Below, piece after piece: positions 10,833 through 64,000 of a stretch of 64,000 bases of DNA. Position 1 is the first letter of the stretch, and each line of letters opens with the position of its first letter. The DNA comes from Polytrichum commune (Eukaryota; Streptophyta; Polytrichopsida; Polytrichales; Polytrichaceae): NCBI GenBank assembly GCA_950295325.1, contig OX485807.1, forward strand, positions 52,234,440 through 52,298,439, read 5' to 3'. The notes under the pieces are model-generated. The model made no database searches. It saw only the letters and a list, made by a program, of their open reading frames with translations, and was not told the DNA's origin. The position numbers were made by a program, and so were the translations under genes.

Positions 10833-10836
10833 GTAG
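10833..10836. other. Target site duplication GTAG, left copy (outer element)
   Basis: GTAG directly precedes the left TIR. The same four bases follow the outermost right TIR at 45147-45150. Confidence 0.75.
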
Positions 10837-10864
10837 AACACTATATTCGTTAATTGGAGACTTT

Positions 10865-11493
10865 GGAAAGTCTCAAAATAAATTGGACCCGTAGTTTCGG
10901 ATGCGAATATTGTGAACGTAGGGAACATGGGGAACAATGGCAACATAATGTTCGAAAGATCCATATGTGATGAATATATATGTTTCTAAATATAGTAATT
11001 ATTTGGGGAATAATCAAAACTACGCCAACACAATATTCCAATGACACAAATTCACAATTATTTTGTATTTTTGATTTTGTATTGAACAAAATTAACGAAT
11101 CTATAAATAGCCATATGATTTTATATCTAGGGACTCTTGGATGCGTATCCCAAACATAACATTTTAGCCAATTGTGGGTAAATTGAACGGCACATCCCAA
11201 ACGCAACAATATTAAAATAATTTGACAGTGTGTATAAGAAATTGCAAATTAGCATCTGCAATATAATTATATAGTTTGGACTCCACATCCGTAAACACAA
11301 ACATATAAAAAACATTTGATAGTGCATGTGAAGTTGGATTCCACATCCGTAAATCAATACGATCATGATATATAATTGTAATTTATAAAATTGCTATAAA
11401 ATGTGTCTAATATAGTATTCGACCCCAATGTCATATATTTCATGAAAAACCAAGACACATTTCAAATAATTGTGGTCCAACCCTACGTCAATA
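10865..11493. other. Outer element subterminal region
   Basis: Non-coding. Two half-sites of the outer palindrome (ACATCCGTAAA) occur at about 11287 and 11349, each after a TTGGA/TTGGACTCC-like phrase. A second GAGAC-type box sits about 15 bp inside the TIR, as at the other ends. Confidence 0.5.
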
Positions 11494-14425
11494 TCATTCT
11501 CCATCTTCATCTTCATCTTCATTTCCATTCTCGACATCGTTTTCTGCAGCAGCAATACGTGCCAAGTTGTCTTTGGCAAAATCTATATATTTTTGGAGGA
11601 TGGTCATTGTCTCTGATTTGGAACCTTTGCGTGGTTTCCAAGCACAAAGTATGGTATCTGTGTTTATCCATATTGGTTCGTATGCTGAGTCCATTGTCCA
11701 TTTGAAACCTTTTTTGATGTCCCACCTTAAATATGTGCAGAGCATATTTTGATCTTTGGTGCTGGGACGACAATATTCCACCTCAATTTGATGAAAATTT
11801 GGGCTAGTTGGAACAAAATTTGGTGACGACAATGCTTTTACCAACCAAATTGGTTTAGGGTGCTCCTCATCTCCAGGACGTACGAGGATCATATAACCTT
11901 CGTAGCAATCAACAGCAACACGAAATGATGGAGCCGGACGATTACAAGCTGGGCCAACATAATGGTCGTCCGCTGCGAACTCTTCACGGATGTCCCCATT
12001 GTCGAAGAACATGGCCTCAGATTCCACGATTGTCATTCGGCTTTGTGGCCAAAAACCTTGTGTCAAACATGAATGTGTTTCGACATCGGGTGCTAGCTAT
12101 GCTGAGCGAATGCGATCCCAGTACGTAATCAATGGTTCGTGGGTATCCCGAACACGCCTTGTGATGTCTTCCTCGCACAATTCTTTCCAATATTGGATGA
12201 ATCCGGATATACCTTTGATGATTTTTGGTCCATTCCTCATGGGGTTGGGTTTGCAGGGCTTCAGCTCCCCATCAGGTAGCATACATTTGCCCTCTTCGTT
12301 TTGGCGCCATACGAGTATCCCTTCCTCTGGACCCCAATCCGGGGAAGTGCACAAAACTTTGAATTGCATGGCCGGCAGACCATCATCACGCATATAGAAT
12401 CCTCCTCGTGCAACTTCATACTCCAACGTCCAAATGAAGCGTCAATGTCATCATGCGTGTAACCAACCATAAAAAAAGACATAAACATTTCTTTGAAAAT
12501 GCCCTTGGCTACGAGCAATGACCAAAAACAAAACACGTATTGACATTTGTTGTCTTTGGCACAATTGTCCAGTTGCACGTGTAGAGTTGGAGGCAAAGGT
12601 TTAGCAAGAACGGTTTGTTCAGGCGGTTCTTGCAGTGACGATAGACAAACTTCTTTCCCCTCTAGCACAACCTCATAAATCGGTGTTGTTCCACATCCAA
12701 CAAAAAGAGCACAAGAGGATGATGTTGGCAGACTCTCAAGATCTCGTAGAAGTTTTGCAAAAGACCCTACGGTATGATTGGCGTCGCCTGGATAGAAATC
12801 CAAGCCATAATGTGCATACTTGACGTCCACATGGTCATGTGCAATCATACCTGAATTAAGACATACAAATGAAAAATACATTCCAATATCATATATGATA
12901 AGGAAATTCAATTTTTTCGCAAGCAGGCCAAGAAAATGAACAAACACTTACGGACGTACATCCGTAACTCTTAACGATGAGTATGTGGGTGCATGTAAAA
13001 AAAATGTGAAAACCAACGAACATGTGACAGATATTGGGAGCTTGAAATATCCATCTGTAGCCTTTATTTTCCGTGCATAACAAGGGCACGCAGTCTTCGC
13101 ATGGTCCATTTTGTCATGAATGATTGTCAAAACTCATTTGGCCTCATTATCGATAATGCGCGATTCTTATAATAGTCTTGACGACGTGCCTCCTAGTTGT
13201 TGACATGCTCAATGTATTTCCGTTGATGTTTATTGTGCGACTTAGTCCCTATTGGATGTGCATCTCGAAGGCCCTTATATTTCTCACAAGCAGAACACCT
13301 AGCAAACTTAACCCCAGGCCTCTTCGTAATGTATTCTGCAAATTGTTGATTCTTGATCACACTCAATTTTGACAACGAAATCGGCCCACATCCAGATTTT
13401 TCGCCAACCTCATTAACATCCATAAGTATGTTCTTCCATTTTGTCCCTGTAGGCAAAACCATCTGGACAACCTTTTCCCCCGACGGCAGAGTCCGTGTCT
13501 TGTGTGGCATCGCATCCGCTAATGGCATAATGATGGTTGATAGTGTTGCAGCCGCTTGGAGTGTTGCCTCCCTGGGCTTCTTTGTGCCAGAGTTGCCATG
13601 GAACCGAGAACGCCGTCCTTGTAGCGAGTAGTTCCGAAACCTATAAAAATTTGCCTTTGAAACTGCATGTATAATGTACCATGCCGTGCAACATATCTCT
13701 ATATTTTCCAAGGTCAGAACCTTACGACCTTCGGCATCAAAGTGCATGTTGCGATGGACTTCAAGTTTCTTTGCAGATCGCATACGAAAGTTCGCAAGCC
13801 ACATCTCTTGTCTCGAAGATTTGATTTTGTCACGGGGAAATAGTTGGCAACACCTCTTTGCACAACAATCCTTTATTGCTACGGACCTAATAGATGTGTC
13901 TCCCAATGTTAGATCTCGACGACGTTGCGTGGGTTCACGGGGCACGCGAACGGAATCATATTTACACCGACCTTATCTAGGACGCATTGTGGCGAACAAA
14001 ACCTTTTGTATTTCCTCAAAACGACGGGCATAATTCCACAAGCTGACACCATCGTGAATAACACTTCGCAACGGCTATCGATGAAGAGAGAATCTCCAAC
14101 CAGGAGGTACTTCCAAAGGATTTAAGGAGTTCAAAATGCACACCCCAACATCTTCCTCCCCAAGGGGATTTGCATCAATACAGTCCGTAGGATTTGAGTT
14201 CCTACAAACACCATCGGCCACGGGGACGCCACATCCATTGACTAGGACAACATCAAGATCAATCCACTGTTCCCACGAATAACCCTCACATGGTGGTATG
14301 AAATCATCCTCTGCATTTGCGACATCAATTGTAGTTTCCTGTTCCATGACACCTTCAAATTTGCTACCATAGCTTGACGCTTCCGAAGAGAACTCAAATG
14401 CACTATCATCGACGTTGGAATCCAT
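11494..14425 (-). pseudogene. Outer-element transposase (DUF7869-like), decayed
   Basis: This is the counterpart of the inner transposase at 27345-31393. The start ATG is at 14425, just after an intron acceptor (TTGTAG). The homologous path runs through a Cys-rich CCAKRCCQLFPRDK, then HDKMDHAKT, an intron of about 150 bp holding one outer palindrome (12947-12968), then VQLDNCAKDNK and GYTHDDIDASFGRWS. These three acidic motifs are the candidate DDE/D residues. Lesions seen: TAG at 14075 (where the inner copy has Trp), TAA at 13973, TAG at 13193, a frameshift near 13150, a deletion of roughly 60 codons plus frameshift near 12430, and TAG at 12097. The inner element is inserted 74 bp upstream of the ATG, in the presumed 5' intron. 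It cannot make a full-length protein. Confidence 0.75.
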
Positions 14426-14494
14426 GGCCACTACAAGTGATCCAAATGAAGAGTATGTCAAAATATCCCATTCAATAAATGTCATAGATAGTCC

Positions 14495-14498
14495 TAAT
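14495..14498. other. Target site duplication TAAT, left copy (inner element)
   Basis: TAAT directly precedes the left TIR of the inner element; the same four bases follow its right TIR at 31925-31928. Confidence 0.8.
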
Positions 14499-14526
14499 AA
14501 CACTATATTCGTTAAATTGAGACTTT

Positions 14527-15045
14527 TTGGGCATTTTGAGACATTCACATAAATAAGGACAAGGATAAATGGAACACATATTGGAGAAAGTTGTAAGATG
14601 CGAACACTTTGAAGCGGGTGTTTAGACCAAGAACCCCATTAATATCTCATATTCGTGATTGTTTAGGGTGAGCAATCCAAACCTTAGGCCACGTTGAATG
14701 GGAAATCTTAAAACATTCATATTATCACACACAAAATATGAGAGCTTGTATGAATATGGTTTAGGCAGGGCAATCCAAACCATAGATCATATTGAAGGGG
14801 AGATATGTCAAGCAATATAATATAACATACAAAATATTCCAAACTCATATTTGTGATGGTTTAGGTAGGGCAATGCAAACCTTAGACCATATTGAAGGGG
14901 AAATCATGTGACAATTATATTATTGCAAAAAAAACATACAAAGTATGGCATGTAAAATGCATAGCATGCTAACACCACACATCCATTGGATAGTGCAACC
15001 CAAAATCATATTGCCTATGGCCCAAAACCCTACGCCTACTATGGC
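14527..15045. repeat. Inner element left subterminal repeats, about 100-bp period, three units
   Basis: A unit GGTTTAGG-AGGGCAATCCAAACC followed by TTAGACCATATTGAAGGGG-AAATC recurs at about 14662, 14758 and 14858 with increasing similarity. It lies between the TIR and the last cargo gene, the position where transposase-binding subterminal repeats are found in other TIR elements. The right end lacks it but has GAGTGCTCTACC twice (about 31714 and 31760). Confidence 0.55.
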
Positions 15046-15332
15046 CTATCTAGCCTCGGAGATTGCCTCTTTTTCTTTTGCCTCTTTTTCTTTTGCTGCG
15101 GCTTCTTTTGCTCGCATTGCTTCAACATTCCTGAAAATCTCCGCCCCGCGACTATAGCCATTCTTGGGGTGACCGCCATCAATAACTAATTTTGGATTCC
15201 GTCGGCCGCCCGAATTATACGACGAAGAATTCGAATACGATGAAGTGGATTGTCTTGCATTTCTGGTCATGGAGTAGAAACGCTCCAACTCGACGGACGT
15301 ACTAGCTCGCATAGGTTTACGGGTGGGACCAA
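15046..15332 (-). CDS. Small basic cargo protein, exon 2
   Basis: This minus-strand exon follows an acceptor (CGTTGCAG at 15333-15340). It begins VGPTRKPMRASTSVELERF and passes a Ser/Tyr/Asn-rich tract, then GYSRGAEIFRNVEAMRAKE. It ends in an Ala/Lys/Glu helix (AKEKEAKEKEAISEAR, stop at 15046). The outer copy at 44398-44730 keeps the segment GYSRGAEIFRAMDAIKAKE and the charged helix. That conservation across two diverged elements implies the protein mattered to the element. I recognise no domain; a short DNA- or RNA-binding or coiled-coil adaptor is possible. It is the gene nearest the TIR, about 520 bp away. Confidence 0.55.
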
Positions 15333-15399
15333 CCTGCAACGCGTGAATGCAAGAACACACGTGTTAGTTTAGGGAGGAAGACCCAAACGTGTGAAACGT

Positions 15400-15819
15400 T
15401 CATTTTTTAAGTGCGGGATGATTGTAATGCGCGGTTAACCAAGTTTTTTTTTTGGGGGGGGGGTTCACCTTGTCACCGGGGGCATTCCCGTCGGAGTTGG
15501 CGAGGAGGGGCAATGCGTCCCGCAAAGGAATAGGAAGGGTGCCACTCTTCGTAGGCCGAGCGTCCATCCGCAGCCGCCGTTGAGGTGTACTACTGCCGCC
15601 GGGCCGAGAGGGGGACGTCCGGACGCATTTGCGATTTATGCCCTTGAGCGGCGACGGGGACGGAGAATGCCGGAAGATTTGCTTGGGTGGGGGGCTATCG
15701 ACGACGCAGGCGTCAAGAGGCTCCTTGGAGTAGTCGATGGTGGACGCGGCATCGTAGACGGTCTCGTAGAAGAAGCTCCCTAAGTTTGATTCGCTAACGA
15801 TCTCAATCGAGGGCTCCAA
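15400..15819 (-). CDS. Small basic cargo protein, exon 1
   Basis: This exon comes after an acceptor (CCATCAG, about 15825). The open frame gives about 130 residues, with the exon closing at a donor (GTGAAC) near 15468 so that the true coding part is about 15469-15824. No ATG is visible at the exon start, so an upstream exon or non-ATG start must supply it. Conserved with the outer copy (43861-44250): YDAASTIDYSKE / VDAASAVDYSKD, VVDSPPPK / VVDSPPAK, and SPSPSPLK / YAPSPSPLR followed by a basic R-rich part. Two SPSP motifs suggest proline-directed phosphorylation sites. Function unknown. The adjacent 15450-15465 contains a run of about ten G. Confidence 0.5.
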   Translation of the reverse strand: MEPSIEIVSESNLGSFFYETVYDAASTIDYSKEPLDACVVDSPPPKQIFRHSPSPSPLKGINRKCVRTSPSRPGGSSTPQRRLRMDARPTKSGTLPIPLRDALPLLANSDGNAPGDKVNPPPKKKTWLTAHYNHPALKK

Positions 15820-15949
15820 ACGCTGATGGCAAAATTAAAACAAACAAAACCCAAGGGGAGGGGGGGGAGGGGGGGGAGGGGGGAGCATGTGAAAATCGAT
15901 ATACATTTGAGGCATAATATATCACACAAATGGCACACCATATACTATC

Positions 15950-16747
15950 TCAAATGAGTTTATTATATTTCGCGTGAGCGTACAACTCTCTGTACATATA
16001 GTCCTTCGGATCCATGTATCTTTCGCCTATCGGATTACAACTAAGGAACCGGGGCACGGGTAGTCCGCTCCCCACGAGCGTTTGAAGGTACTTAAGTAGG
16101 TCTAACAAAAAGCGGTCTCGGACCTTCTCGACCGTCCACGTAGGGCAAACTATGAAGTTGGAGGTCGGGTTCAAAATGTTTTTGGAAGCGCTGTCGTCCA
16201 CCATCAACGTGTTGTCACGGGTGGGGCGAACGTCGTAGGGATAGCCAACCATAGTTGGACGCTGGTCCCATACGACTGGCTTCAAGACCTTAAGAAATTG
16301 GTTTACGGCGGGGTTGTTGGGCTTCTTCACAACCCTGCCCTCGGGGGTGTATAATGTTTTACAAGAATCTTGTCCTAGGACCAAGCACGGGGGTTGGAGT
16401 CCCTTGAAGATGAACTCCACGATGGCCTGGGTGTTCTCGGACTTCATGGAGCTCCAAACAATCACCCACCATTTGGATAGGGCGACCTGTAGGAAGCGCC
16501 GAAGCCACGGGCGGAGGTACACTAGCTTGCTTTTGATGTACGCGGGGGGTCCATCGTAGTTCCCATCCTCGGGCTTGCAGAAAGGCACCGTGGGGACCCT
16601 GGGACAGTGCACGCACTGGACGAGGACCCCGTTGAGGTCTAGCACCAGGAACCGTGTCTTGGGCGGCGGAGACGGGGAGGGCAAAATCGAGGGGACCACC
16701 ACGCTGTCCTCCACACTCCTCGGGGAGGACCGGTGGGGAGCCACCAC
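15950..16747 (-). CDS. FCP1/NIF-like HAD-fold phosphatase-type cargo protein
   Basis: An intact single-exon frame of 265 codons, stop at 15950. A Pro/Ser-rich N-terminus precedes HAD motif I FLVLDLNGVLV (about residues 33-43), motif II VIVWSSM (about 94-100) and motif IV TLMVDDSASKNIL (about 178-190). These are the landmarks of the FCP1/NIF (TIM50/SCP-like) branch of HAD phosphatases. Motif I is DxN rather than DxD: the second Asp, normally the general acid/base, is Asn. The outer copy has the same DLNGVL, so this is a family trait and not decay; plant HAD relatives with DLNGLL exist. It may be a weak phosphatase or a phospho-binding protein. It lies between the ParB/methyltransferase-like gene and the small gene, all reading left. 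Confidence 0.75.
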   Translation of the reverse strand: MVAPHRSSPRSVEDSVVVPSILPSPSPPPKTRFLVLDLNGVLVQCVHCPRVPTVPFCKPEDGNYDGPPAYIKSKLVYLRPWLRRFLQVALSKWWVIVWSSMKSENTQAIVEFIFKGLQPPCLVLGQDSCKTLYTPEGRVVKKPNNPAVNQFLKVLKPVVWDQRPTMVGYPYDVRPTRDNTLMVDDSASKNILNPTSNFIVCPTWTVEKVRDRFLLDLLKYLQTLVGSGLPVPRFLSCNPIGERYMDPKDYMYRELYAHAKYNKLI

Positions 16748-17186
16748 GCTATGCTCCGATCCCTGCGGCGACGAGCGAGAGAAGGTGGCGATGACTATGT
16801 TATGCTATGTCCATCTCAAGCAGAACGGAAATTTTGTGCAAACACAAGAAGAATTGGACCATTGGTGGCAACAAAAACATACAAGGGGAACAACATACAT
16901 TGGGACATGGATGCAAACATATGGGCGCCAAAAATAATAATTTAATTGTTACAAATCTCTATGTACAATTTTATGGGGGGGGGGGGCGCAGTGAACGAGG
17001 GCATTCACACTATCCTAATTGTACATCTACAAAATTGGTTGCGCGCCGCCAAGGTTGAGCGTAGTCGAGTGAGGCGAGACGAAGGGGATCGCGGGGGGAG
17101 CACGTTGTTGGGTGCGGCGGGGGGGGGGTGTAGTTCCTCATAGCTAGGGGAGACACGACCACGCCAACAAGACAATGACCAAGGAA
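16748..17186. other. Intergenic gap between HAD gene and large cargo gene
   Basis: No gene recognised. A 12-bp G run occurs at about 16975-16987. Short plus-strand frames here are shadows of the minus-strand genes. Confidence 0.45.
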
Positions 17187-17599
17187 GTTTGGGTCGGTCG
17201 ACCCAAACTGGGAGGGCTCAGTGTGTTACCTCGCCCTGGTCATGTCTCGACGATGTGGATGCCTCCACCGTCCCCGGTGCCCCACCTCTCTCGCCACCGC
17301 CTTCTCCGCCTACGTCAGGGACCTTGTCCTGCAAAGGTTGAGCATCAGGCCCTTGTCCTAAACCAATCTCCGCATATGCATCATGCATGGGTTCATCGAT
17401 TTGGTTAGGAGTAGAGGTATCACCAGGCCCTTGGAGGCCTTCAACATCTAACATGGTTGTGTCTCTTTGAGACACAAGTTCGTCAAGGGAGGACTGAGCT
17501 GCTTTGGGGTTTGGGTCGCCCGACCCAAACTATCCTGCATCGGGGGAGGCGCCTTGGGGCACTACAGTCGAGGGTGGGTTTGGGTCGGTCGACCCAAAC
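17187..17599. repeat. Inner palindromes 1-3, at the 3' end of the large cargo gene
   Basis: Three copies of GTTTGGGTCG-NN-CGACCCAAAC at 17187-17208, 17509-17530 and 17578-17599. The third lies inside coding sequence and is read as FGSTDPNP. The second straddles the TAG stop and would be read as FGSGDPNP if translated. The outer element has its own palindrome in the equivalent coding place (42561-42582). Confidence 0.85.
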
Positions 17600-18782
17600 A
17601 TCCTGGGATCGTCCGCCTGGTGAGGGGGCGCCATCACTATGGGGGGCCGTAGTGGTGGAAGGCCCAACGGGGAGGAGGCTCCAGATACGCGCCAGATGTT
17701 GGGATCGTCCACTTGTTGGACCGGCGCGTACGGAACATGGGGCGGCCGCATCATGTATTGGAAGCTAAATGACCCTTGCGACACTGGGTGCTGAGGGATG
17801 CTCTGCGCTGGGAAACCGGGGGGCAAGTGCGGAAACGAGCTGGACGGAGCCACCACCAATCCTTGCGCCCACATCCCTTGTATGACTTGCGATATCAAGT
17901 CGGCGCTGGATGGAGGTTGGGCCATCGCCCTTAGTCTTTCTTGTTCCAAGAGGAGAGCCCTCAGCTCTGCGACCTCGTTCCGCATGGAGGGTTCTTCCGC
18001 GGCAGCCCTTTGCAGGCGGACACGCTGCTCCTCGTCTCTACGCATCTTCTCGTTGGCTTCCTCCACAGTGAGGACCTCGGGTTTCACCCTAACCATGCCT
18101 GCGAACGCTATCGGTGAGGGGGGATCCGATCTGAGCTGTTTGGCGAGCTCAATGTCGTCGTCGTCCTCGCTGCTAATGGCAATGGTCTCCTCCAATGCGT
18201 AATCGCCATAGAGCTTCTTTCCCTTTAACTTCCTCCTCTCCCAGAACGTGGCAGTCGCGTCCCTGGAGTACATGTCCCTCGCATCGTCCACCGTAAGGAC
18301 GGGCATCATCTTATTCTGCGGGGTTGCCACACGCATAGCCTTCTTCCTCTGAGGGGCTTCAAATTCTTGCATGAATCCCGTTGCCCCTTCCTCCACATCC
18401 CCCTCCTTTTCCTCCTTTCCGTGTTCTTCTTCCTCCTCCTCCTTTTCCAGCTCTCCACCTCCTGTACGGGACGGATTGCCCGGATGCAACCCGACTAGAG
18501 GTTCGGGTAATTGGGTTGTTGCCCTCATCGCAATTTCTTCCGGGTTGATCCGCCTCGCCCTATCAAGAGGGTTCTCACCCCCCTCAACAACCTCGTCCAC
18601 GTAGCTTCCCGGGATCCAATCGAGGATATCCATCTTCTTTGCCAGCGATTTCTGCGTCCTGTAAAATTGCAGATCGCCATCCTCTATGTACGAGTAGATG
18701 TTCAACCCCAACATCTACACAATCCAAGTTATATAGAAATTAGAATTTGCAAGACAAAAAACAAGACCAAAAACAATATCTA

Positions 18783-18908
18783 GTTTGGGTCGACCGACCC
18801 AAACCAAGAGGGGCCTAGTTTGGGTCGACCGACCCAAACCAAGAGGGGCCTAGTTTGGGTCGACCGACCCAAACCAAGAAAGAGCCTAGTTTGGTCGAAC
18901 GACCAAAG
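18783..18908. repeat. Inner palindromes in intron 2 of the large cargo gene (four copies)
   Basis: Perfect copies at 18783-18804, 18818-18839 and 18853-18874, and a shortened one (TTTGGTCGAACGACCAAA) at 18889-18908. Spacing is 35, 35 and 36 bp. They lie wholly inside the intron 18715-18937. The outer element has three copies of its own palindrome in the matching intron. Confidence 0.9.
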
Positions 18909-20358
18909 CTGCGCAAGAGCTAAAGAATGTAACTTACCATGGCAGCATAGACGGGTTTCGAGCCCCCGAACACATTGAAGATACAGTCCCCTCTCCTAGT
19001 CAGGGTCCTCAGCATCCGCATGTAGAATTCCATCCGCAGTTCATCTGCAGGATAGTTTGCGTATTTGGCCTCGTCGTATAGGCATTTGCTGGCACCTAAC
19101 CCATCTGGAACTTGGAAGAGCTTGTCCATCCGGGATATAGGGTGGTTCGGCACCTTCAACAACTCCGCTTTGTACACGAAGTACAAACACAGGACGTTGA
19201 CGACCTTGGTCTTCTTGTCCTTCAACGACGTGTAGGCCCCCTCCGCCGGTGCGGCGATGTAGTGAGACTTGGAGACTGCATACTCCGGCTGCAATTTCCG
19301 GACAAGGTCGTACACCTGCTCCGCCCTCCTATCCTCGACTATCCATAGCCAGACATCAACCTCCCTGAACTTAGGACTCGCATAATCGACGAACTTAGAT
19401 AGGAAGGGGTCGTAAAACAGTGTGCTCATCGTACCCTCAAATGAGCTTCCAGGAATGTTCCTGAAATCTATCATTCCGAATGGAAAACGCCCCCCTGCTT
19501 TCGTCCTTATGGCCATTCTGGCGTCCTGACCTGGCCAGCCCTGAATTTTCAAAGGCTCGAAGGTGACAAGGTTGAAGTAAGCGTCCCCTTCAAACTGGAC
19601 AATCTTCTTCTCCTTGATGAAGTTCGAGAACGCACGCGCTGTGTGATCCGGAAAAGCCCGGTTCTTCCCACCCTTCACCATCTTGGCCCGCAAGAAGTCG
19701 TCCCCCGCTTCCCTTATTAGAGCCGCCATGGAGGCACTGGTGAACTTATATTCAGCTTTGAATGCTCTCCAGTTAGCCTCATGAACCTCACCGTCCACGA
19801 CAATATTCCTCTCCGGCACCAATTTATGCAGCTCTTGCACTATAGTTGTCTTCTTTTTCCTATTCTCCGTCCATTCCTTCATGGTGTAGCATGAAGGGAC
19901 GAAGGATTTGGGCTTTAAGAAGACAATCTTCGGGTGCACCCAACACCTTTTCGCTGTGGGCGTGAAATGCAGGATGTGCGCCGCCGCCTTCTCCATCTCC
20001 GTCTCGGAAAGGCCTTGAAGAGTTCTAAAGAACTCTCTCACGAGAGGCTTCATTTGTTTGAAGCGCGTGGTTTGGTTGAAGAAAATTCCTGTGTCCGGGT
20101 CGATGAGCTCACCCGTCTCATGCTTCTCAAATACACTCTTCCACTTCATCCAAACGGAGTCGGATGCTGTGATTAAATAAATCTCCCCTCTAAGCTCGTT
20201 GTATTTCTTCTGTTTGTGACTAGCATTATCAATGGAGGAGAATTTATTTATCATTTGGTATTTGAAGTCCTGGATGTGATCAAAACAATCATTTGAATGC
20301 ATGTTAGATATGTACATGTGATTTCCAAAACATATCATGACCAGTATCTGCACCAAGA

Positions 20359-20472
20359 ATTTGGGTCGATTGACCCAAACTAAAAAAACATGACTGCAAC
20401 AAGACTTTGGGTCGAGCGACCCAAAGTACACAAATAAAGCTGCAAAAGGAGTTTGGGTCGATCGACCCAAAC
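20359..20472. repeat. Inner palindromes in intron 1 of the large cargo gene (three copies)
   Basis: Copies at 20359-20380, 20405-20426 and 20451-20472, exactly 46 bp apart, inside the intron 20270-20481. On the gene's strand each is followed within about 12 bases by a T-rich tract and GCAG, like a 3' splice acceptor. Confidence 0.9.
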
Positions 20473-21524
20473 AATACTCACCTCCCACTTGGGATTCTTG
20501 TCCTTCGCATTCTCCCTCTCCTTGGGAAGCCTACCATAGAACTCCCACACCTCCCGCGAGGCCATGATATTCCTTATCCAGGAAGCTTGGTAGGCACTTT
20601 TCTTATTGCCCATGTTAAAGTAACGGGAGATGTCGCTCAGTCGGGTCTCATCGTCAGACCACACCACCAGTGCCTTCCACACCATCAACTTCTCCTTCTG
20701 ATGGTTGGGATCGTCCCACTCAGTCATCAGTTGGATTTTCTTGGAAGCCTTAACGCTGTGTTGGCCGTCTATGAGCCAAAAATCGCCTTTCTGAATTGTC
20801 GCCCACATTTCAGGGGTAGACATTTTCTTCAGTCCCTGGGGCATCACTACAATGGTTTGCCTGTCGTCTTTGAATTGTTCGCTAACGATCTGCGCGATTA
20901 TCCAATCGATGTAGGCGTCTTCTTTTGCCCGGACACATTTTTCTGGTGGCACGAGATGATACTAACTGATGTTCACGTCGAATTTGAAATCCCTGCCCAT
21001 GAAAAAGCACTGGGAGCACTTGGTCGTGAAATTGTTCACGATTTTTTGGATCTCCCCTGCATCCACTTCCTGCCCTGGCTTCGGCATGCGCAATTCGGGA
21101 GAGATTGGCTCGTTAGTCATCACACATGACTCTCTCGCCGTCTTGGAGGGAGTTGTTTGGCGGCTGCCAGAAGGCGTAGGAATCTCGCTAACCGCCGGTG
21201 TCTCCGATGGAGTGGTTCGTCTTGAGCTAGCCGGGACTGGTTGCGGCATCCTCACCGATTGAGGCCTTGACGACCCTGCACCTTCCTCAGTGGGTACCTT
21301 CCGCCTGACGGGTTGCTGAGACTTCGTTTTGCTCTGCAGGGCTTTGTTGAGCACGCTGATTGCATGCTTTAGTTTCGTAAACCGGCTCGAGACCTTTGTG
21401 TTCGATGTACTGGCATCGATGAAAATTGTCTCGGGTTTGATTACGTCAGGTTCGACACATGACTCCCTTGCATATGTAGCGTCAAATGGTTCGACGAACT
21501 GGTGCAGAAACATATGAGCATTCT

Positions 21525-22507: not shown

Positions 22508-22822
22508 ATTCTGCACAGCGTTGTTCTCAAGGATGACGTCTGCGTAGTCTCCAAAAGACTGGACCGACGCCACCTCCCATCCCGTAAGAGTCGCCCAGGT
22601 ATGTTTTTCCACGGTCCCTACTTTGACAACGAATATCATTTTGTAAAGGGAGGTTTTTACTACTTGAATTGACCAGGTGAGGACAAGCCCGTCCTTAGGG
22701 ACATATGAGTCATCCTGAGGTGTTTCGTGCTCCTGCCATAACACGTCTGGCGCAAGCATGAACCACCTTTCTCCTGTTCTTTTCTTTGGGGCCATCTGCA
22801 AAGAAAGAAGCAAGGATGTTAG

Positions 22823-35249: not shown

Positions 35250-35495
35250 TCAACTATGCTTAAATTTAAATATCATGCATAATGATACTCGCATCAAAGC
35301 ATCCAAAGTGTCCAACTTCAATGAAGTTTGCAAGTGGCTCTTGATAGTATAATTTAGGTTTGAAAATCCCCTTTCACAACTTATTGCGATAATTGAAGGA
35401 TTCACAAGTATGACATGGCAAAGTTTCATGAGAATTTGTGGCCAATTGGTATATTGTCCCAATTGCATTTGAATCCCACCTTTGAGAAGAAACAA
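35250..35495 (-). pseudogene. hAT transposase C-terminal dimerisation fragment
   Basis: An 81-codon minus-strand frame contains ISCERGFSNLNYTIKS followed by SLKLDTLDALMRVSL. The pattern ERGFS.(x)n.R/K..L..DTLDALMRV is characteristic of the C-terminal hAT dimerisation region in ZNF862/KIAA1586-like transposases. No catalytic part is present. It is a remnant lodged in the outer element's centre. Confidence 0.6.
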
Positions 35496-36289
35496 ATCTT
35501 ATACTGAAGTTAATCAACAAGAAATATATAGTCCCCTCCATACATGCTACACTACAAATGGTATTTAGTTTCTCTCATTGTTTGGAGTTACAAAATGCTT
35601 TCTTTTATTATTATTTAAGGGTTTTAATTGTTGACAATGACATAATATACAATGAATAGTTATAGCATTCCAAATAATTAAATATTAAGCGATACTACTT
35701 ACAATATTTACTGTACTAGTAATTTAAAGCCCGCTTACGCTTATTTCAATACTTTTACGTTTCCTAAAATAATGAATACTTTATGGAGCTCGTATGATTA
35801 TTTCACTCATTATCAAAAGTGAAGATTCTCATGTTCATGAAATGGTCATATAGGTCCCTGCAATTATGTTGACTATTGAACCTAGATGGTTATCATACTT
35901 TGAGCATTGAAATTCAATATTTTTTGGTTTGCAAGTGTTTTTGGTATCCGTTCTTGGAGTCAAACCACAGACCACTCAAACGAATAATGTTGGTCCTATT
36001 TGCCAAAGCTACAAATGAGATGTCTCATTTTATATTTAGAGATGGATTTAGTGTGACTTTAACTTGCCTTAGCATAAACATAAGATGTTATTATGACATA
36101 TGATAATAACATCAACGAACTAAGTATAAATCACACAAATAGACTGGTTTATTGAGAAAGATGAGTCTATACCACTTGTTGTACCAGTAGGGTTATGCCA
36201 CGTAAGGGTTTAAGGTGGCATTTGGACGCGGGGTTGATGCGACGTTTGGGGTCGGGACACTTGGAGACCCTCTTTTGTTTTAGGGTTTC

Positions 36290-36620
36290 AAAGTGCACCA
36301 GCTCCTCTTGGCCCTCCTCTTCGCGTTTTTGTTTCGTGCTCTTGTTGCTCTTCGGCCTCTTGTTGCTCTTCGTGCTCTTGTTGCTTTTTTTTTGCTACTA
36401 TCTTGCTTCTCTTCACACATTGCTCTTCGTGCTCTTGCTGCTCTTCTCTTAGTTCTCTTACCTCCTACTTCTCTTACTGCTCTTCATGCTCTTGCTGCTC
36501 TTCTCTTCCTTCTCTTCCTTCTCTTACTTCTCTTCCTTTTCTTGCTGCTCTTCCTTCCCATTATTGTTGCTCCCATTCTTGCTGCTCTTCTCATTCTTGT
36601 TGCAAAACCCATTCTTGCTG
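36290..36620 (+). repeat. TCTTGCTGCTC / TTCTCTT low-complexity tract
   Basis: Pyrimidine-rich imperfect repeats of GCTCTTGTTGCTCTTCG and TTCTCTTACTTCTC. Overlapping frames give Leu- or Ser-rich artefacts. It could be leader DNA for the rightward cargo gene, mirroring the purine-rich tract near 23.9 kb in the inner element. Confidence 0.6.
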
Positions 36621-37414
36621 GTCAATTGCGGAGGCTCCTCAGAGCGTGAGTAAGTTTCTTGCGTGCTGGTGCCCATTAGGATGCTCTAGGAATACTTTCA
36701 GTTGTTGCAAGGTTTTAGGGTTGGAGTAGTTTTTTCCCCCTTTCATCTTGAAGCATGTGTTTTTGACAATTCAAAATGAGTAGCTTCAATCTGTAGTTCA
36801 TTGTTTTTTTGCATACAAATCAATAGTTCCCTTTCACTTGTGGTGCATGGTCGGTGTTAGTGTTTCAATCTGATTTATGAGCAACTTGTTGTAGATTGTA
36901 TTGGAGTAGTTCTAAATGTTGTTCTTCCATAGATGATTTCCTTAGAGAGCATTGAAAGAGTATGCAACAACAGTTTCATTGAATCATGCATGTGTACATT
37001 GAATTACTAGAGGTTTCTACCCTGAATTATATTGTAAATTTGCAGTTGGTCCTAGCTGCAGGACCAGGACGAGGAAGAGTTGTGGTTTAGGAGCAAACAT
37101 TCTACAAAGGTAAGAATTTCTATAACATTGCAATTGCATTTTGTATGATTGCACTTTTTGGTTGTTGTGGTTTAGGGCTTAAGGTTAGCTTGAAAACATA
37201 TGAGCTGCAACAACACTGAGAGCAAGTGAGATTCCAATTTCAATACTTTCTGAATTCGTTTGGTACTTTTGATTGCAGAGTCTGGTATTGCAATGCAGAG
37301 CCATATTGCATTCGGATTTGCTGATCAAAACCATATTGGAAGACAAGGCAAGCTTCCGAAAAATACAGAACAACCCCAAATATTTAAATTTAGAATAATA
37401 ATAAATTCCCTAAA

Positions 37415-38191
37415 GTTTACGGACGCGCGTCCATAAATTTTAGGGACATTTGTGCGAGTGAGAAACAAGACACTCACACAATGTGTGCAGAGGTTACGGA
37501 CGCGCGTTTGTAACTTCCAGAGATTTAAGTAGGATGAACTTCTCCAGCATAAAATATTTGCAAAGTTTACGGACGCGCGTCCGTAAACTAGGCAAAACAA
37601 AGTGAAAATCCATTATATAATATATGTGCAGAGGTTACGGACGCGCGTCCGTAATTTCTAGAGATGAAAATTCACCTTCTTAATATATTAAAAAGTTTAC
37701 AAACGCGCGTCCGTAAACTAGGGGAAGCAAATATAAGAAAGAAAATCCTTTTCTAAGAAAGCATATCCTTTTCTAAGAAATCAGATCTTTTTTCTAAGAA
37801 AGCAGATCCTTTTCTAAGAAAGCACATCCCATTTTAAGAAAGCACATCCCTTTCTAAGAAAGCACATCCCTTCTATCATACCAAATCCCTTTCTATCATA
37901 TATGTGCAGAGCTTACGGACGCGCGTCCGTAACTTCTAGAGATATTATATACAAATATGAAATATTTACAAAGTTTACGGACGCTCGTCCGTAACCTATG
38001 CATATATAAGTAAGCAAATCATTTTCTATCTTATATGTGCAGGAGTTACAGACGCGCGTCCATAACCTCTTCAGATATTTGAGTATATAGTATACGCGCT
38101 ATGCGTATTCACTACAACTGGATGTTTTCATTTGGATATACAATATCTAAATGACAGAATACACAATCTTTACAAACGCGCGTTCGTATAT
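37415..38191. repeat. Outer palindromes, cargo-side group (about nine copies)
   Basis: Copies at about 37415, 37492, 37565, 37633, 37695, 37911, 37973, 38045 and 38170. Two contexts alternate: AAAGTTTACGG...GTAAACTAGG, and TATGTGCAGAGGTTACGG...GTAACTTCTAGAGAT. The latter places a GCAG acceptor-like sequence before each palindrome. The group lies just upstream of the outer large cargo gene, as the 23034-23214 array does in the inner element. Confidence 0.85.
37738..37880 (+). repeat. 20-bp tandem repeat (TTTCTAAGAAAGCACATCCC)
   Basis: About seven imperfect units of roughly 20 bp between two palindromes. No coding content. Confidence 0.8.
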
Positions 38192-39557
38192 TAGGATCTG
38201 TATCCATTGACCACAATACTAACTTGTTGTCTATCTTATTTTTGCAGAGGGCATCTAAAAAAAGATCCGCAAATGAGATGTTCGCAGATGCTCTCATTCT
38301 TCCGCTGCCAGAAGATATAAAAGACATCAGCCCCAACGACCACTACAAGCCACAAGATGACATTGTAGATAATGGGACAATACTAGTAGAGAAGGACGAA
38401 AAAAAGATATTTGTGCTTAGATTTGCCTACCAAATTAAGATGGACATAGATGATGCGGAGAAGTGGCTAAAACTTAAATCGTGGACAGTAGAGTGTGCAG
38501 TGGCCCAAGGGGATTATGTAGTAGTTGACCTTGAGAAGAAAGAAGATCGAGTCACATTCATTTTGCAAGAATCTTACCATCCCTTTAACAAAAATGAGTG
38601 TGAAAATGGTAGTCCCGATGCGGCTTGCTTCAATCTCCAGACGGAGTTCCAAGACTATGCATGCAATGCACCTTGGACGGGTAAGCGGCTTGGACGACTC
38701 TTGAACAATGTTACAAAAATGAATGGGGCCTTGCTAGAGGCCAGAAAGGGGAAGGAGAAGAAGAAACAAATCGTTCCTGAACGGCCCAAGCGTGTCCCTA
38801 AACTTGTGCCGGAATCCTCGAGGCCCTCGCAGAGTGGTGCATCAAGAGGGAGCAGACATGCGAGTAAACGTTCTCACTCGCAGATGGAGTCATCAAGGCT
38901 AACAGAGGGCCCGGATGTCAGTTCAACACTCACTGTCGCTCCTCTCCTTAAAAAAGGTCAACGTCCTAACGCCGAACTCTCCACAAAGATATTCCAAGAG
39001 TTCGATGAGAAGACAAAGGGTTGCTGGCCGCTTGGCAGGTATTTCACTTTCGACGTAGACGTCTACAAATGCCACAAGGGCACCGAAAGTATGAATACCA
39101 GAGCAAAAGAAGAGAGCGGAGTATAGTGGCAAATAAACAACATCATGAACAACCCCAAATTTGACAGGCAGACGATTTGCGTCACACCAAAGGATCCTAT
39201 CGTTGAAGTGAACGAAAAAAATTGGCCCATTCTCAAGAATGGAGAGTTCTACATAGTCGACGGCCAACATAGTGTGATGGCTGCAAAAGCTCTCCTTAAA
39301 GACGACGAGTGAAAAAACCCATTGAAAGAAACGATCCGATATTGGAAGGCATTCGTCCTGCATTCCAAGGACTCGAACCAACTCATAGCAATTTCTGCTT
39401 TCATGAACCAAGGGAATAAAGTGAGGCAGTTCGAGGCTTCATGGGCAGCCAACATCGTGGCTGGGAGGACCTTGTGGGTGGAGCACAAATGTCCCCCAAA
39501 AGAAAAAGACAATGCAGTCATGAAGAACCCTAAATGGCAGGTATGTCCTTCAAATAG

Positions 39558-39581
39558 ATTTACGGACGCACGTCTGTAAAT
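39558..39581. repeat. Outer palindrome in intron 1 of the large cargo gene
   Basis: ATTTACGGACG-CACGTCTGTAAAT with one mismatch between arms, inside intron 39541-39672. Confidence 0.8.
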
Positions 39582-41036
39582 CTGGCCCTTCTCGTCCCAT
39601 TGCTTCAAATATTTTAATTTAATCTGTCTTGATTTCAATGTTATGATTTCTTGCAATTCGTGCCTCTTGCAGACATTCAGCAATGTCATATGGACAAAGT
39701 TCTCGAGTATAGACATGAAGACAAGCGGCATGAAAACAATGCATGAATTGAAAGGCGAACTCAAGCTCATCACTGCAACAGAAAAGACGTGGTCAATATG
39801 GTTGCGACTCTTCGATGTCCACAACAACGGCGACCTTGTCAATCCAGATGCAGAGAACACCTACAAGAGCGACTCAAAGGTTAAGGTACCACCAATCCTG
39901 CGAGAGTTCTTTTGTCCCCTCCAAAGATTGATGGACTCGGAGCTGTACAGGGCAGCACAACATATTCTTCTAGAAACTCCTAGAAGGACTCTGCCCTATC
40001 CCAAAATCTTTCTGAAGTGGCCGAAGCATATGAAGCCATCCACATACCACATTAAGGAATGGTGCGATTACAGAAAGAAGAAGACCATGGCTGTAAGGGA
40101 GATTAGCAAATTGCTACCCACCCACAACCTCATTAATAGTAATGGTGAGATCGTGTGGGAGAATTGGAGGAAGCTGAAGGGTAAATACCACATCAATGGC
40201 CTCTCCATGCGAGCTTTGATAAGGGGGCATCATCCTTCCTTGCCCAACGATCCAGAAGGAACGAAAAGAAGGGATCCATCGACAAGAGGGAGGCAGGGTT
40301 GTACGTGAACTTTCTCGATAGGAAAAAAAAAGCGAAATTCGGAGGGTTTGCAAGATTTTGCACGGTCACAAAGGGCATGAAGTTCGGCACATGGGACACC
40401 CATGCTTCAAGAGCCTCTGTGAGAGATGACCCCCGGGGTTGCCCTTTCGCCATTTTTTATTTTCGTGCAATTCCCGGAACTTGGAAACAAGACGTTGCAG
40501 GATCACCCTTCTACGACCCCTTCTTTAAAGCCTTCAAGAGCTATTGCTCGCCTGCCGTCTTTAAGCCTCATGTGTGGTTATGGATTGTAGAGCACAAGAG
40601 GTCTACATCCATTGTCCATCTATACACATCAACGATGGACCTCAAATACGATCTGTACCACAACACCTACATCTCGGCGAAGACAGAAAGGATCACTGTT
40701 ATTCAAGAGGCAAGAGGGGTGAAGCAAGTGGGAGCTGTACAACTTTATTTCTTGACACGCAAATCCTCACCAACTGGGCAATTGCCTATTAAACCACACG
40801 AGGTGTTCAAGAAAGTCTACTCGTTGCCCCCACCACACCCCAAGGAGCTTGTGGAGGAGACAATGCAGGCCGTCTACCCGGCGTTCGAGCTCCGGATGGA
40901 CTTTTATATTGGAGTCTTGAAGGCTTTGACTGTCATGAGTGAGACAGTTTACAACGTCTTTGGAGGCACGAAGTTTGTTTATGCAGCATTGGTGAGTATT
41001 TGTTTGTCTTTCAACCCACGTATCTTTTGCATAGTT

Positions 41037-41159
41037 ATTTTACGGACGCGCGTCCATAAAATAACCCAGTATTAGGTGCACGGGAATTTTACGACCGTGC
41101 GTCCGTAAAATTGTCCCCCATCTTTTGAATGTTGATTTTACGAACGCGCGTCCGTAGAA
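41037..41159. repeat. Outer palindromes in intron 2 of the large cargo gene (three copies)
   Basis: At about 41037-41062, 41086-41110 and 41136-41159, each starting ATTTTACG and about 50 bp apart, inside intron 40992-41232. The arms differ from the upstream copies (ATTTTA instead of GTTTA), yet remain palindromic, so the pairing itself is kept. Confidence 0.85.
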
Positions 41160-42560
41160 TGTCTTGACATCTAGCCTCATGTATATGTCATCACCACAAT
41201 TGTTCCTATCTAATTTTCTTGTTATGGTGCAGATGCTTGGGTTGCAGGTGAATTCTTTTGTGGAGGATACCGACTACGATGACATCCATACTCACAAGGT
41301 TATTGCCTCCAAAATGGATATCCAGGACATCATGGACGTCCTTACACCCCATCCTGTGGTGTCTCTTGCTTCTAGAGAAGAGGCAATGCCCGGAATGGAG
41401 ACAGACCCTGAAGAGGACCAAGATCCCAGTTCCCCAAGAGCGCAGCCCTCCACACAGGAGCCTTTACACGGCCTTGTCCGCGACCCAATTAATCCAAGTG
41501 TTTTCCTGCTGGGCACAGATGACACGGATGCACAGGAGACACACGTGAACTTCACTCCAATTAGGGTCCATCATAACCCTGTTCTCTTACCTTTTGGGAC
41601 TTCCACCTCTCGAGTTGGGTTTCCTTCAACTGCGGGTCCATCTTGTGCTGTAGGTGTTATTGCGGAGAAGGATGTGGACCTTGCGGCAGAAGGCGGATGC
41701 ACCGCTTCATCTCGAGGGGGGTCTCAACATTCAGATCTACCCCCTATGGAGGGGAGGGATGTGCTGGAGTTGATATTGAGGCCTGATATCTCTCTATATC
41801 ATGAGAGTCGACGAAAGAGGAACAAGACGCCATACAATGAATACCCTGAAGGCGCGGTCTTGGAGCTCTCCGATGAAGACGAGGATGAGATTAGGATTCA
41901 CAATGCCATCTCTGCCTTGCCTACCGAACCTGGCAAGGTGAAGAAAGAGCCGATGTCAGTGTCCGAATTGGACGAGAAGATGGAGAAGCGAATGAAGGAA
42001 GAGCTTGACCAACGGCTTCGAGAAGCTAACAAGGAGCACGCCAAAAAGATGGCCGCCATCCAAGCTGAGATGGAGCAAGCTAGGTTGGAGTCTACTCGAA
42101 GGCACGCTGATCTCATGGCTCAAAATCAGCAGTTCTTGGCCCAGAGCCAACAATTCATGAGCTTGATGCAGAGCTTGCAAGCAAGGCCCCAAGTTGTATA
42201 TGCAGCTCCCGAGGCCGGCATGTCGATGCCCACCACTCTCATGCGGCCTCCATCTAGTAGTCATGCAGTTTATATACCCGAGCATGCTTATCTAGCTCCC
42301 ACGTTGATTGTCCTGCCCTCTCCCATTGTTGTCGCCACTCCAGAGCCCTCCTCTCTTCCAACAGGAGTGGAGGAGATACCGGCACGTGACACGGCGGGTG
42401 CCGCCGAGAGAGATGTCAATGAAGGCAACGCCCCCATCGGCGATGAAGATGTACATATGCGGGGCAGCCAAGACTCCACAGATGAGGATCAGCCTTACAT
42501 GGATACTCAAGGGTCGCAAGCGGCTGGAGACACTTTGTTGGTGGTCGAAGATTTGGACAA

Positions 42561-42695
42561 TTTTGCGGACGCGCGTCCGGATCCTGTGCCCATGACGGGG
42601 CCAGGTGAGGGAGGCACTGCTGGCGCGGACCTCGCCCCTGAAGAGGTAATCAACCTTTGAGCATGCCTCCCACGTTACGGACGCGCATCCGTATC
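42561..42695. repeat. Outer palindromes at the 3' end of the large cargo gene
   Basis: TTTTGCGGACGCGCGTCCGGAT-like copy at 42561-42582 inside the last coding exon, and GTTACGGACGCGCATCCGTATC at 42674-42695 just after the stop. These match the placing of the inner copies at 17578 and 17187. Confidence 0.8.
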
Positions 42696-43044
42696 TTCCT
42701 TGTCTGCCTCCTTCGTGGCATGTGTATATTATCAAGTTCAATCCTCGACTTCGCCCGGCGGGTGGATACAATTTTGTTAGCATAGATTCCATTAACTTCA
42801 ACACAGATTTTTTTTGTGACAATGTATATTATTCACCAAATGTGTATCACCAATTACATTAATACCAATTTTTTGAGCTGGATGGTTCGGTACCTATGAA
42901 TAGTTTGGTAGGATATTTCGTTGTTGAGTTTATCCATGCTTGTCAATTGGTTTACTTGAGTAGTACCATTTACCTAGATAGAATGTTCCATCACAGGGTC
43001 CATCGGAGATATGTTGCAACCCCGCGGGAAGACCAAGTGCGCCC

Positions 43045-43768
43045 ATGAGGAAACCATTCATAATATTTGACCTTAATGGGGTGCTTTGTCATTCCAATCA
43101 TATCTCGCATAGTGCATCCAAGGGGCCCTTCCGTACGTAGTCCACAAGACATGGATTACGGCGGACAGTTCGATACTCTCATAAATAAGAAGGTTGTACG
43201 TGCCCGCCCCGGCTTGAGGAGCTTCCTTCGTGAGGTCCTTGGCTTCGCACATGTCATCATCTGGAGCTCTATGCTCATGGACAACACGAAGGCCATCGTC
43301 GGTTTCCTTTTCCGAGAACTCGCAATGCCATGCTTGCTTCTCGGTCAAGAACACTGCGATGACCTCTATGACCGTAGTGGCAAGATTGTACCCAAGGTTG
43401 GAGGAGGTCGTGGACCTCAATTCTTAAAGGTCTTGAGGAAGAACCTCTGGGTGGGCGTCCCTATGTTAGAGGGGGTTTCCCACGGTTGTTGGCCCACCCC
43501 GGATAACACACTCCTCATTGACGACAGCCCGGCAAAGAGTATTCTCAATCCCCCGGGCAATTGCATATTCCCGGATCCTTGGGAAAGCGATAGGAATGAC
43601 AACTTTCTAGGGAGTGAACTAGGGCCCTACATTAGGAGGCTTGCCTATCACCCCGGAAGTGTCCCGGAGTTTGTGCTCTCGAACCCTATTGGCAATAGGC
43701 CTCTAGGCCCACGAGATGAGGAATTTAGGAGGTTGTACGGCTACGCTAGATTCAATAAATTAATATGA
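43045..43768 (+). pseudogene. Outer FCP1/NIF-like HAD protein, frameshifted
   Basis: ATG at 43045 gives MRKPFIIFDLNGVLCHSNH in one frame, which stops at 43138. The homologous continuation (RPGLRSFLREVLGFAHVIIWSSM, then NTLLIDDSPAKSIL and the C-terminal YARFNKLI) is in the next frame from about 43120 on. So there is one frameshift near 43100-43150. Motif I is DxN here as in the inner copy. The C-terminal phrase (Y.Y/HAK/RFNKLI) is shared with the inner protein. Confidence 0.75.
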
Positions 43769-43860
43769 AAACTTTGACAATTTTGGGTTTGTACTTTGAC
43801 TCTCCATGTAAATATCTAACATTTCTCCCCTTATTTTTGTAATATATTCTTGTGTCTTAG

Positions 43861-44759
43861 TTGCCTCACCAAGCACCCCAAAGTGTCGTCAATGGCATGT
43901 GTGCATCACGGTCAGGCCACACATCCCCTTCCCTTGGTATGAGCGACGTTGCAATGCCTTCACTATTCCAATTTTCGGCCGTCGATGCTGCCTCTGCTGT
44001 TGATTACTCCAAAGACTCCAGGTTTGAAGACGGAGTCGTGGATAGCCCTCCTGCAAAGGTTGCAAAACTCAATTACGCTCCATCTCCATCTCCCCTCCGC
44101 AGTGAGAAGCATGTCCGAAACCCACGGTCGACCAGACGCCTTTGCATGGATGAACCCCAAATTGATGTACCGGCGTTTGCAAACGTCCCTCTCGGGCTTG
44201 TATCTATACCCCTCGATGTCCCAGAAGCTCTAACCAGCGCCCCGAAGGCGAAGGTGCCCAACTATTGGCATTCTCAAGTTTTTCCTTGATGATTTCCATG
44301 TATTAGTGCATTTCAGCTTCTTGGGTTTTTCGGACTTCCATCCGTAACTTGTAACCACTTATACTAACCCACTTCATTATATATATTTATGGTCATTGTT
44401 CAGACCCCAATGTACACGAATGTGGGCCGGGCATCCTCGACTTCGTCATTGGATAGACGAACACTGAAGACAACTTCTTGCGAGTCTGATCGTTGTTTGG
44501 CCCTACGGAAGAGTGCAAGACATTCGGTTTCCCAAACGCATTCTTATTCCACTCACAATACCACAACCCACAAATCGGTAGCGGTTCAGCAAATATGGGA
44601 AATGGCACATATTCGGGATCAGTCAATAAACAAGGTTACAGCCGCGGAGCCGAGATCTTTAGAGCAATGGATGCCATTAAAGCAAAAGAAAAAAAAACGG
44701 CCGCAAAGGCTAAGGCAAAAATACAAGTAGTGAGTCGTATTCACAATCCAAACGTATAG
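43861..44759 (+). pseudogene. Outer copy of the small basic cargo gene
   Basis: Exon 1 follows an acceptor (GTCTTAG at 43854-43860) and runs to a donor (GTGCCC) near 44249, with the shared YSKD, VVDSPPAK and YAPSPSPLR phrases. Exon 2 starts after GTTCAG at about 44402; its conserved GYSRGAEIFRAMDAIKAKE is in a different frame from its start, indicating a frameshift near 44500. It is probably non-functional. Confidence 0.6.
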
Positions 44760-45040
44760 GCTATTATTAACATACATTTAGTAGTGGGATTGTATTTCTA
44801 GGACTTTGGCTTAATATTGGATATTCCACATGTATTTTGTACTTCAACCCTACTCAATAAATATGATATCGATTTTGTATATGCAAATATTTTCATATAT
44901 CTCGTTTTCTTATTTACATCTGTGTAGTGCCATGCATTTGAGTCTCATATCTGAATCCTAAATTGGGAACATAGCATCTTTGTATTGTTTTCCTTCCTAC
45001 AATTGTGAAAGCCACGTCCTTAAATAATCTCAAAATCAAC
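44760..45040. other. Outer element right subterminal region
   Basis: AT-rich non-coding stretch between the last cargo gene and the duplicated right end. No palindrome seen. Confidence 0.5.
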
Positions 45041-45146
45041 AAAAAGTCTCCAATTAACGAATATAGTGTTTAGTCCAATTTTGAAAAGTGCATCCTTCAA
45101 TAGTCTCATAATCAACAAAAAGTCTCCAATTACCGAATATAGTGTT
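45041..45146. repeat. Duplicated right terminus of the outer element
   Basis: Two TIR copies, ending at 45070 and 45146, sit 76 bp apart, each preceded by ATCAACAAAAAGTCTCC. Only the outermost is followed by GTAG, which matches the left target duplication, so the inner copy is a tandem duplication of the end. Confidence 0.75.
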
Positions 45147-45150
45147 GTAG
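45147..45150. other. Target site duplication GTAG, right copy (outer element)
   Basis: Matches 10833-10836. Confidence 0.75.
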
Positions 45151-63988: not shown

Positions 63989-64000
63989 GGTTTGTGTGAT

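Follow-up and report, generated by a model that had tools for sequence, protein, structure and literature searches.

Closest Described Systems

Sola elements duplicate 4 bp of target DNA, CACTA/EnSpm elements duplicate 3 bp, and the VANDAL transposons with their VANC proteins belong to the Mutator-like elements. The giant element Sola1-1_Ec32 of the brown alga Ectocarpus spans 21.5 kb and has its ParB-methyltransferase and transposase genes on opposite strands (PMC12477816). Its methyltransferase is predicted to be a 4mC or 6mA writer, and the authors suggest that proteins of this kind bind to the transposon that encodes them and modify it. The available parts of that paper name no target site for Sola1-1_Ec32, and no report of target sites for algal ParB-methyltransferase proteins was found; the available parts of PMC6431247 and PMC12695648 do not mention ParB. 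VANC is an element-encoded protein with DUF1985/DUF287 domains, associated with short family-specific motifs that are tandemly repeated within introns and ahead of the transposase, and the VANDAL motif changes rapidly between related elements, according to the accessible portions of PMC5735166 and PMC10398659.

Two Nested Elements of One Family

The window analyzed here is a 64,000-nucleotide stretch of the Polytrichum commune genome (contig OX485807.1, positions 52,234,440 to 52,298,439). An earlier note on this DNA had read five copies of one terminal sequence as the ends of two nested elements in opposite orientation, one flanked by TAAT and the other by GTAG, and the flanks and ends bear out the nesting, the boundaries, the orientation, and the 4-bp duplications. 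Five exact matches to AACACTATATTCG are present, two facing right (10837 and 14499) and three facing left (ending at 31924, 45070, and 45146); allowing up to two mismatches, the window holds 10 matches versus 1.6 expected. The inner element (14499..31924; 17,426 bp) has these terminal inverted repeats (TIRs) between TAAT copies at 14495..14498 and 31925..31928, and its gene order matches that of 10 full elements elsewhere in the genome. The outer element (10837..45146) has AACACTATATTCG at both ends between GTAG copies at 10833..10836 and 45147..45150, and is 16,880 bp long when the inner element and one TAAT are discounted. An extra copy of its right terminus (45058..45070, minus strand) lies 76 bp inside the real end; it is ruled out as the outer terminus because it gives no 4-bp match, and a duplication of 4 bp pairs the left end only with the one at 45146. 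The inner element inserted ∼70 bp upstream of the likely start of the outer transposase. The two are related giant TIR transposons of a single high-copy family. CpG observed/expected is 0.75–0.88 in the window's elements versus 0.52–0.59 in the flanks; this difference is not used as evidence here, since it fits lower methylation but also youth or coding content.

The 17-bp end AACACTATATTCGTTAA has 594 exact matches in forward and 589 in reverse orientation in the 408-Mb genome, versus 0 and 0 for its backwards-read control. Ten full elements, selected by opposed ends 14–18 kb apart, are all flanked immediately next to AACACTATATTCG by an exact duplication of 4 bp, as are seven of eight additional end pairs; the ends of the one exception are 37 kb apart and may not belong to a single element. 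The boundary and duplication length proposed earlier are thus shared by 17 of 18 further pairs, or by 19 of 20 when the two window elements are included.

The earlier note was cautious about a CACTA label, and rightly so, given AACACTA at the ends, 4-bp duplications, and DUF7869 as the sole Pfam match in the transposase. CACTA inside the terminus, the TIRs, and the large size resemble CACTA/EnSpm, but the moss termini begin AACACTA, and membership is rejected on the 4-bp duplication (19/20 pairs) together with the apparently different transposase. No domain besides DUF7869 is found in the transposase by Pfam at E ≤ 1, although it may be distantly related to CACTA transposases. The 4-bp duplication is also that of the Sola superfamily, a candidate placement by description.

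Genes Carried by the Elements

In each element a DUF7869 transposase is encoded on one strand and a ParB-like/methyltransferase-fold gene on the other, and a NIF/FCP1-like gene is present as well. The nature of these accessory genes was not in the earlier note, nor were two ∼1-kb insertions that break inner-element genes.

The transposase of both elements is probably of the DDE type. The inner gene (27345..31393, plus strand; DUF7869 E 1.8e-39) begins with an N-terminal piece at 27345–27645, is broken by an inserted repeat (∼27646–28608, ∼1 kb), and then codes to 29822 and, after an intron at 29823–29906, from 29907 to 31393. The outer gene (11497..14425, minus strand) is broken into several frames; it was recognized from open reading frame pieces homologous to the inner gene, with its start codon assigned by eye, and inverted repeats I1 and I2 link the two genes. 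Foldseek with the transposase model returns no match at E ≤ 0.001, and the VIA list for the C-terminal part includes MazF-like and chromo-barrel folds. A viral contig collection yields 16 pattern matches for relatives, none of them confirmed for the transposase, and a search of the accessible literature found no paper naming DUF7869.

The NIF/FCP1 phosphatase-like genes are assigned by PF03031. The inner gene lies at 15953..16804 on the minus strand (E 5.6e-14), with tail exons at about 15403–15834 and 15049–15363, and the outer at 43064..43768 on the plus strand (E 1.5e-10), with its tail at about 43861–44286 and 44490–44756.

The inner ParB-like/methyltransferase-fold (par) gene occupies 17218..22795 on the minus strand. 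Comparison with an open copy places its introns at 20270–20481 and 18715–18937, and exon 1 is broken by an inserted repeat (∼21525–22506, ∼1 kb) and one stop. The outer gene (38278..42660, plus strand), drawn from open reading frames and homologues, has two in-frame stops in exon 1. The predicted fold of the protein is ParB/Noc-like, with both a ParB/Srx N-domain and a helical DNA-binding fold, and the region after it matches beta-class DNA methyltransferases more weakly. The three par exons have no Pfam match at E ≤ 10, the DUF1985 of VANC included, and PDB sequence searches return nothing from the par exons, both alignments, or the pieces of a second element type.

GERR is the type of CTP-binding motif found in the ParB family. 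It is absent from the moss protein, and from a set of 60 homologues, all 46 that are aligned across the position have GQH instead. Counted in the same way by aligned position, the methyltransferase-like domain has DFR (18) or DFC (1) in place of the (D/N/S)PP(Y/F/W) catalytic motif in 19 of 19 covering homologues of the 60, and one further homologue has DFW there. Since DPPY is absent in the family, we think that this domain is a binding module rather than a writer of marks.

Palindrome Arrays

Each element has a 22-bp palindrome of its own that is present ∼20 times, GTTTGGGTCGNNCGACCCAAAC in the inner and TTTACGGACGNNCGTCCGTAAA in the outer; a third class is represented by TTTACGAACGNNCGTTCGTAAA. 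The palindromes, which the earlier note did not report, consist of a 10-bp half-site around a variable 2-bp center. Most are found in the upstream regions of the transposase and ParB-like genes and within the introns of the latter. In the inner element, they are found in the par-nif gap (17187) and par exon 3 (17509 and 17578; 17187..17599 in all), in par intron 2 (18783, 18818, 18853, and 18888, the last degenerate; 18783..18909), in par intron 1 (20405 and 20451; 20405..20472), just upstream of par (22822, 23034, 23067, 23099, 23131, and 23163; 22822..23184), and ahead of the transposase gene (26799, 26863, 26941, 27004, and 27082; 26799..27103). In the outer element, eight lie ∼0.3–1.3 kb upstream of the transposase when the inner element is discounted (32187..33123), nine upstream of par (37416..38190), one in par intron 1 (39559..39580), and three in par intron 2 (41039..41158).

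Chance is ruled out by 21 palindromes in the inner element versus 0.25 sites per mononucleotide shuffle, although one of the 21 (17735) looks unrelated to the family, and an origin in the host genome at large is ruled out since no palindrome was found in the rest of the window. In the host genome, the inner palindrome is present 9,231 times (control, 0), and a search of the prokaryotic genome collection did not find it; the outer has no match in the viral contig collection. Par exon 3 holds ∼2 palindromes per element (21 in 11 elements), and the 10 counted in exon 2 are probably there because the drawn par boundary overlaps intron 1.

The nearest named relatives are mosses; in the Ceratodon proteins no palindrome is visible, as these sequences are spliced. 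Among metagenomic relatives the palindrome differs by ParB-like clade, and those whose protein is 69–78% identical carry palindromes in the same par introns. The patterns used recognize a palindrome in 36 of the 60 homologues. Part of this link between palindrome and protein is common descent. A second, different transposon type, with a SWIM-like and perhaps MULE-like transposase, has its own ParB-like gene and the same palindrome.

Proposed Function and Alternatives

The reading that we favor, with some reservation, is that the ParB-like protein and its palindromes form a self-recognition system, probably for anti-silencing, that is convergent on VANDAL/VANC. The protein likely binds the palindromes that belong to its element family, probably as a dimer. 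By analogy, predicted binding to the arrays that precede both genes and to those within the ParB-like gene's introns may keep this noncoding DNA free of host silencing, and may do so in trans for all copies that share the palindrome, much as VANC does on VANDAL transposons. Both systems have their motif arrays in noncoding DNA, within introns and ahead of the transposase, as the accessible part of PMC5735166 describes for VANDAL, whereas the moss protein is ParB-like, its sites are palindromic, and its anti-silencing role is proposed by analogy. The giant size and the ParB-methyltransferase gene opposite the transposase recall what is available on Sola1-1_Ec32, but the moss elements lack DPPY and add a NIF/FCP1-like gene. 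The predicted central domain fold and the palindromic sites resemble those of ParB-parS, Noc-NBS, and KorB-operator pairs; unlike these bacterial systems, the moss protein is encoded by a eukaryotic transposon, has GQH rather than GERR, is fused to a methyltransferase-like domain, and would be paired with a 22-bp site with a variable 2-bp center.

Autoregulation is an unlikely alternative, in which the protein would act like KorB and limit copy number by repressing both the transposase and its own gene, with the intron sites as extra operators. Some 20 sites with intron arrays are more than a repressor needs, and VANC systems have the same site layout in the accessible part of PMC5735166. Autoregulation and anti-silencing are nonetheless compatible. 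A role in synapsis or partition, with the protein on parS-like palindromes bridging or compacting the 17-kb element to join its ends or keep an excised circle, draws on the ParB/Noc fold and the giant size of the elements. We consider it improbable given that none of 247 perfect palindromes lies within 2 kb of an element end, the clusters being at promoters and introns, that a Pfam scan of ten window open reading frames shows no ParA, and that there are derivatives, flanked by 4-bp duplications, of just 3.6 and 4.8 kb, although these may have shrunk after insertion. Least probable of all is that the palindromes have nothing to do with the protein and are either neutral expansions of tandem repeats or RNA/DNA hairpins, for although local tandem repeats contain many of the sites (a 97-bp unit recurs from 32614 to 33195, for instance), the arms are kept while the 2-bp center varies, the same introns carry palindromes in the relatives with 69–78% identical protein, and the second transposon type combines its own ParB-like gene with the same palindrome.

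Significance for a Proposed Transposon Self-recognition System

The presence in one genome of DUF7869 elements and the second type, each with its own ParB/methyltransferase-like gene and the same palindrome, leads us to suggest, tentatively and with more doubt than conviction, a ParB-parS-like code for self-recognition and anti-silencing that came from bacteria, passed between transposon superfamilies by sharing or capture, and was rewritten by clade. ParB-methyltransferase proteins were already known from algal transposons; their role there is a guess, and our literature search found no target for them. The moss elements offer a readable candidate target, a family-specific palindrome in thousands of copies that has VANC-like placement and changes with the protein, which makes the guessed role testable by one binding assay. 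If the proposal is true, these elements would represent an independent origin of sequence-specific transposon self-protection and would provide reprogrammable DNA-binding modules as a by-product.

Termini, target duplications and element structure

The earlier note read five termini in the window, paired them into an inner element (14499-31924, flanked by TAAT) nested in an outer one (10837-45146, flanked by GTAG), and assigned both 4-bp duplications; all agree with our re-reading. Further copies exist across the 407.8-Mb, 64-contig genome, in which the window occupies G000:C5:52234440-52298439 and the 17-mer AACACTATATTCGTTAA of the element end has 594 forward and 589 reverse exact matches (control, 0 and 0). 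Ten of ten full elements retrieved, selected by opposed ends 14-18 kb apart, carry an exact 4-bp duplication (ATAA, TATA, ATCT, CTAT, ATGT, TCAT, TAGT, AATG, GTAA, TCAT), as do seven of eight additional end pairs; pairs with the duplication include two short ones (~3.6 and ~4.8 kb), and the eighth additional pair has ends 37 kb apart. Including the window's two elements, 19 of 20 end pairs have the duplication.

Subfamilies seem to exchange modules, judging from the sequences of mosaic elements E03 (L013/L014) and E10 (L027/L028); in E03 the transposase is 93-96% identical to that of the inner element, and NIF and most pieces of the ParB-like gene (par) are 59-87% identical. Three par matches with identical scores (G000:C3:10601873, 10685648 and 10769490), ~84 kb apart in one orientation, have an arrangement that resembles a tandem segmental duplication. 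A ~1-kb repeat with TGTCGC...GCGACA ends occurs at ~4914-5881, 8012-8996, 21525-22506 and 27646-28608, once more in locus L045 and once in element E06. The copies at ~21525-22506 and 27646-28608, 94-99% alike over the stretches compared and flanked, by eye, by 5-bp duplications (ATTCT, CCTTG), break the inner element's par exon 1 and transposase. At window positions 57000-64000 base composition is strongly skewed between the strands, with GC skew reaching 0.5 and AT skew reaching -0.37, and long ORFs lie on the minus strand.

Palindromes and their placement

Scanning the window for 10-bp arms ending in CG around a 2-bp center, with ≤2 mismatches, yields 42 palindromes: 21 in the inner element, 21 in the outer element and none outside both. 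Twenty inner sites are of the GGGTCG kind or close to it and one is seemingly unrelated; the outer sites are of the CGGACG kind or close. Mononucleotide shuffling gives a chance level of 0.25 in the inner element. Genome-wide, GTTTGGGTCGNNCGACCCAAAC has 9,231 exact matches (control, 0), and in the prokaryotic genome collection it has none. The central dinucleotide varies among element subgroups. At 20405-20426 the outermost pair is altered on both sides (CTTTGGGTCG..CGACCCAAAG), a change that looks compensatory.

Among 247 perfect sites in 11 inner-type elements, 102 lie upstream of the transposase, 62 in par introns, 32 upstream of par, 11 in the par-nif gap (present in each element), 31 in stretches scored as par exons 2 and 3, and 9 elsewhere. 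None of the 247 falls in coding sequence of the transposase, nif or par exon 1, or <2 kb from an element end. All 21 outer-element sites are noncoding: 8 upstream of the outer transposase (discounting the inner element), 9 upstream of par and 4 in par introns.

Palindrome class and protein clade

Many metagenomic homologues are exon ORFs running into an intron, so the palindrome appears translated; with the patterns used, it is recognizable in 36 of 60. Read by eye, the inner clade has classes GGGTCG, CGGTCG and CGGGCG, the outer clade has CGGACG plus one CGNCCG, and a third clade has CGAACG. Labels cover 40 of 52 rows of the exon-1 tree (30 metagenomic, 8 other P. commune copies and 2 from the window; 12 rows unread), on which the six classes require 6 changes (minimum possible, 5) and CGAACG forms a single clade with 99% support. 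Scoring unread rows as their own class gives 14 changes versus a shuffled mean of 29.8, with 0 of 200 shuffles as low. Part of this pattern would be expected from co-descent alone. Two exon-2 pieces not in this tree are P0124, which shows a mixed intron, and P0126, which shows a GGGCCC kind. Metagenomic proteins P0156 (93% to outer exon 1), P0130 and P0142 lie near P. commune copies, indicating that environmental samples contain the host or something closely related to it.

A second transposon type

For the first 100 palindromes listed genome-wide, 77 are inside elements bearing the 17-mer end or next to them: 36 and 25 are flanked by opposed ends, and 16 lie ≤16 kb from one end whose partner is not among the matches listed. 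The other 23 form four clusters, each of which was retrieved. One is a 12.3-kb stretch (C1:2151952-2164281; L047, L046, L048), a second transposon type carrying the same palindrome, with 61-bp terminal inverted repeats (53/61 identical) and no clear target duplication at its ends. Palindromes sit between two coding pieces of its transposase-like gene, which has a SWIM-like motif (Pfam SWIM 0.076, under Pfam's cut-off), and upstream of an opposite-strand gene in which two motifs were read by eye, one a ParB/Srx-like DGNHR and the other a methyltransferase-like motif I. This ParB-like gene is assigned by motif only, because it has no BLAST similarity to that of the first type. The remaining three clusters match genes of this stretch at 95%, 83% (106 residues) and 39% (135 residues).

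Proposed roles

The ParB-like protein and the palindromes are best taken as belonging together because of their common placement, abundance and clade-wise change, and because a second transposon type has a like pairing. The ParB/Noc fold and the dyad symmetry of the sites suggest that the protein binds them. The system is not categorically new, since the protein class is already known: one study describes a ParB-like plus methyltransferase gene in Sola1-1_Ec32 of Ectocarpus and cites similar proteins from green and red algae (PMC12477816). In the part of the literature searched, which included few subscription papers, we found no prior report of candidate target sites or their change with the protein, of DPPY motif loss or a NIF partner, or of sharing between two transposon types.

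The palindromes share their layout with VANC targets of VANDAL21: accessory-gene introns, upstream of the transposase, and tandem repeats (PMC5735166). VANC protein leads to methylation loss, and RdDM targets the same noncoding regions, according to a further study (PMC10398659). Autoregulation by the palindrome system is our second choice of role. By analogy with the layout of VANC targets and the methylation loss, our first choice is that the palindrome system may serve in anti-silencing.
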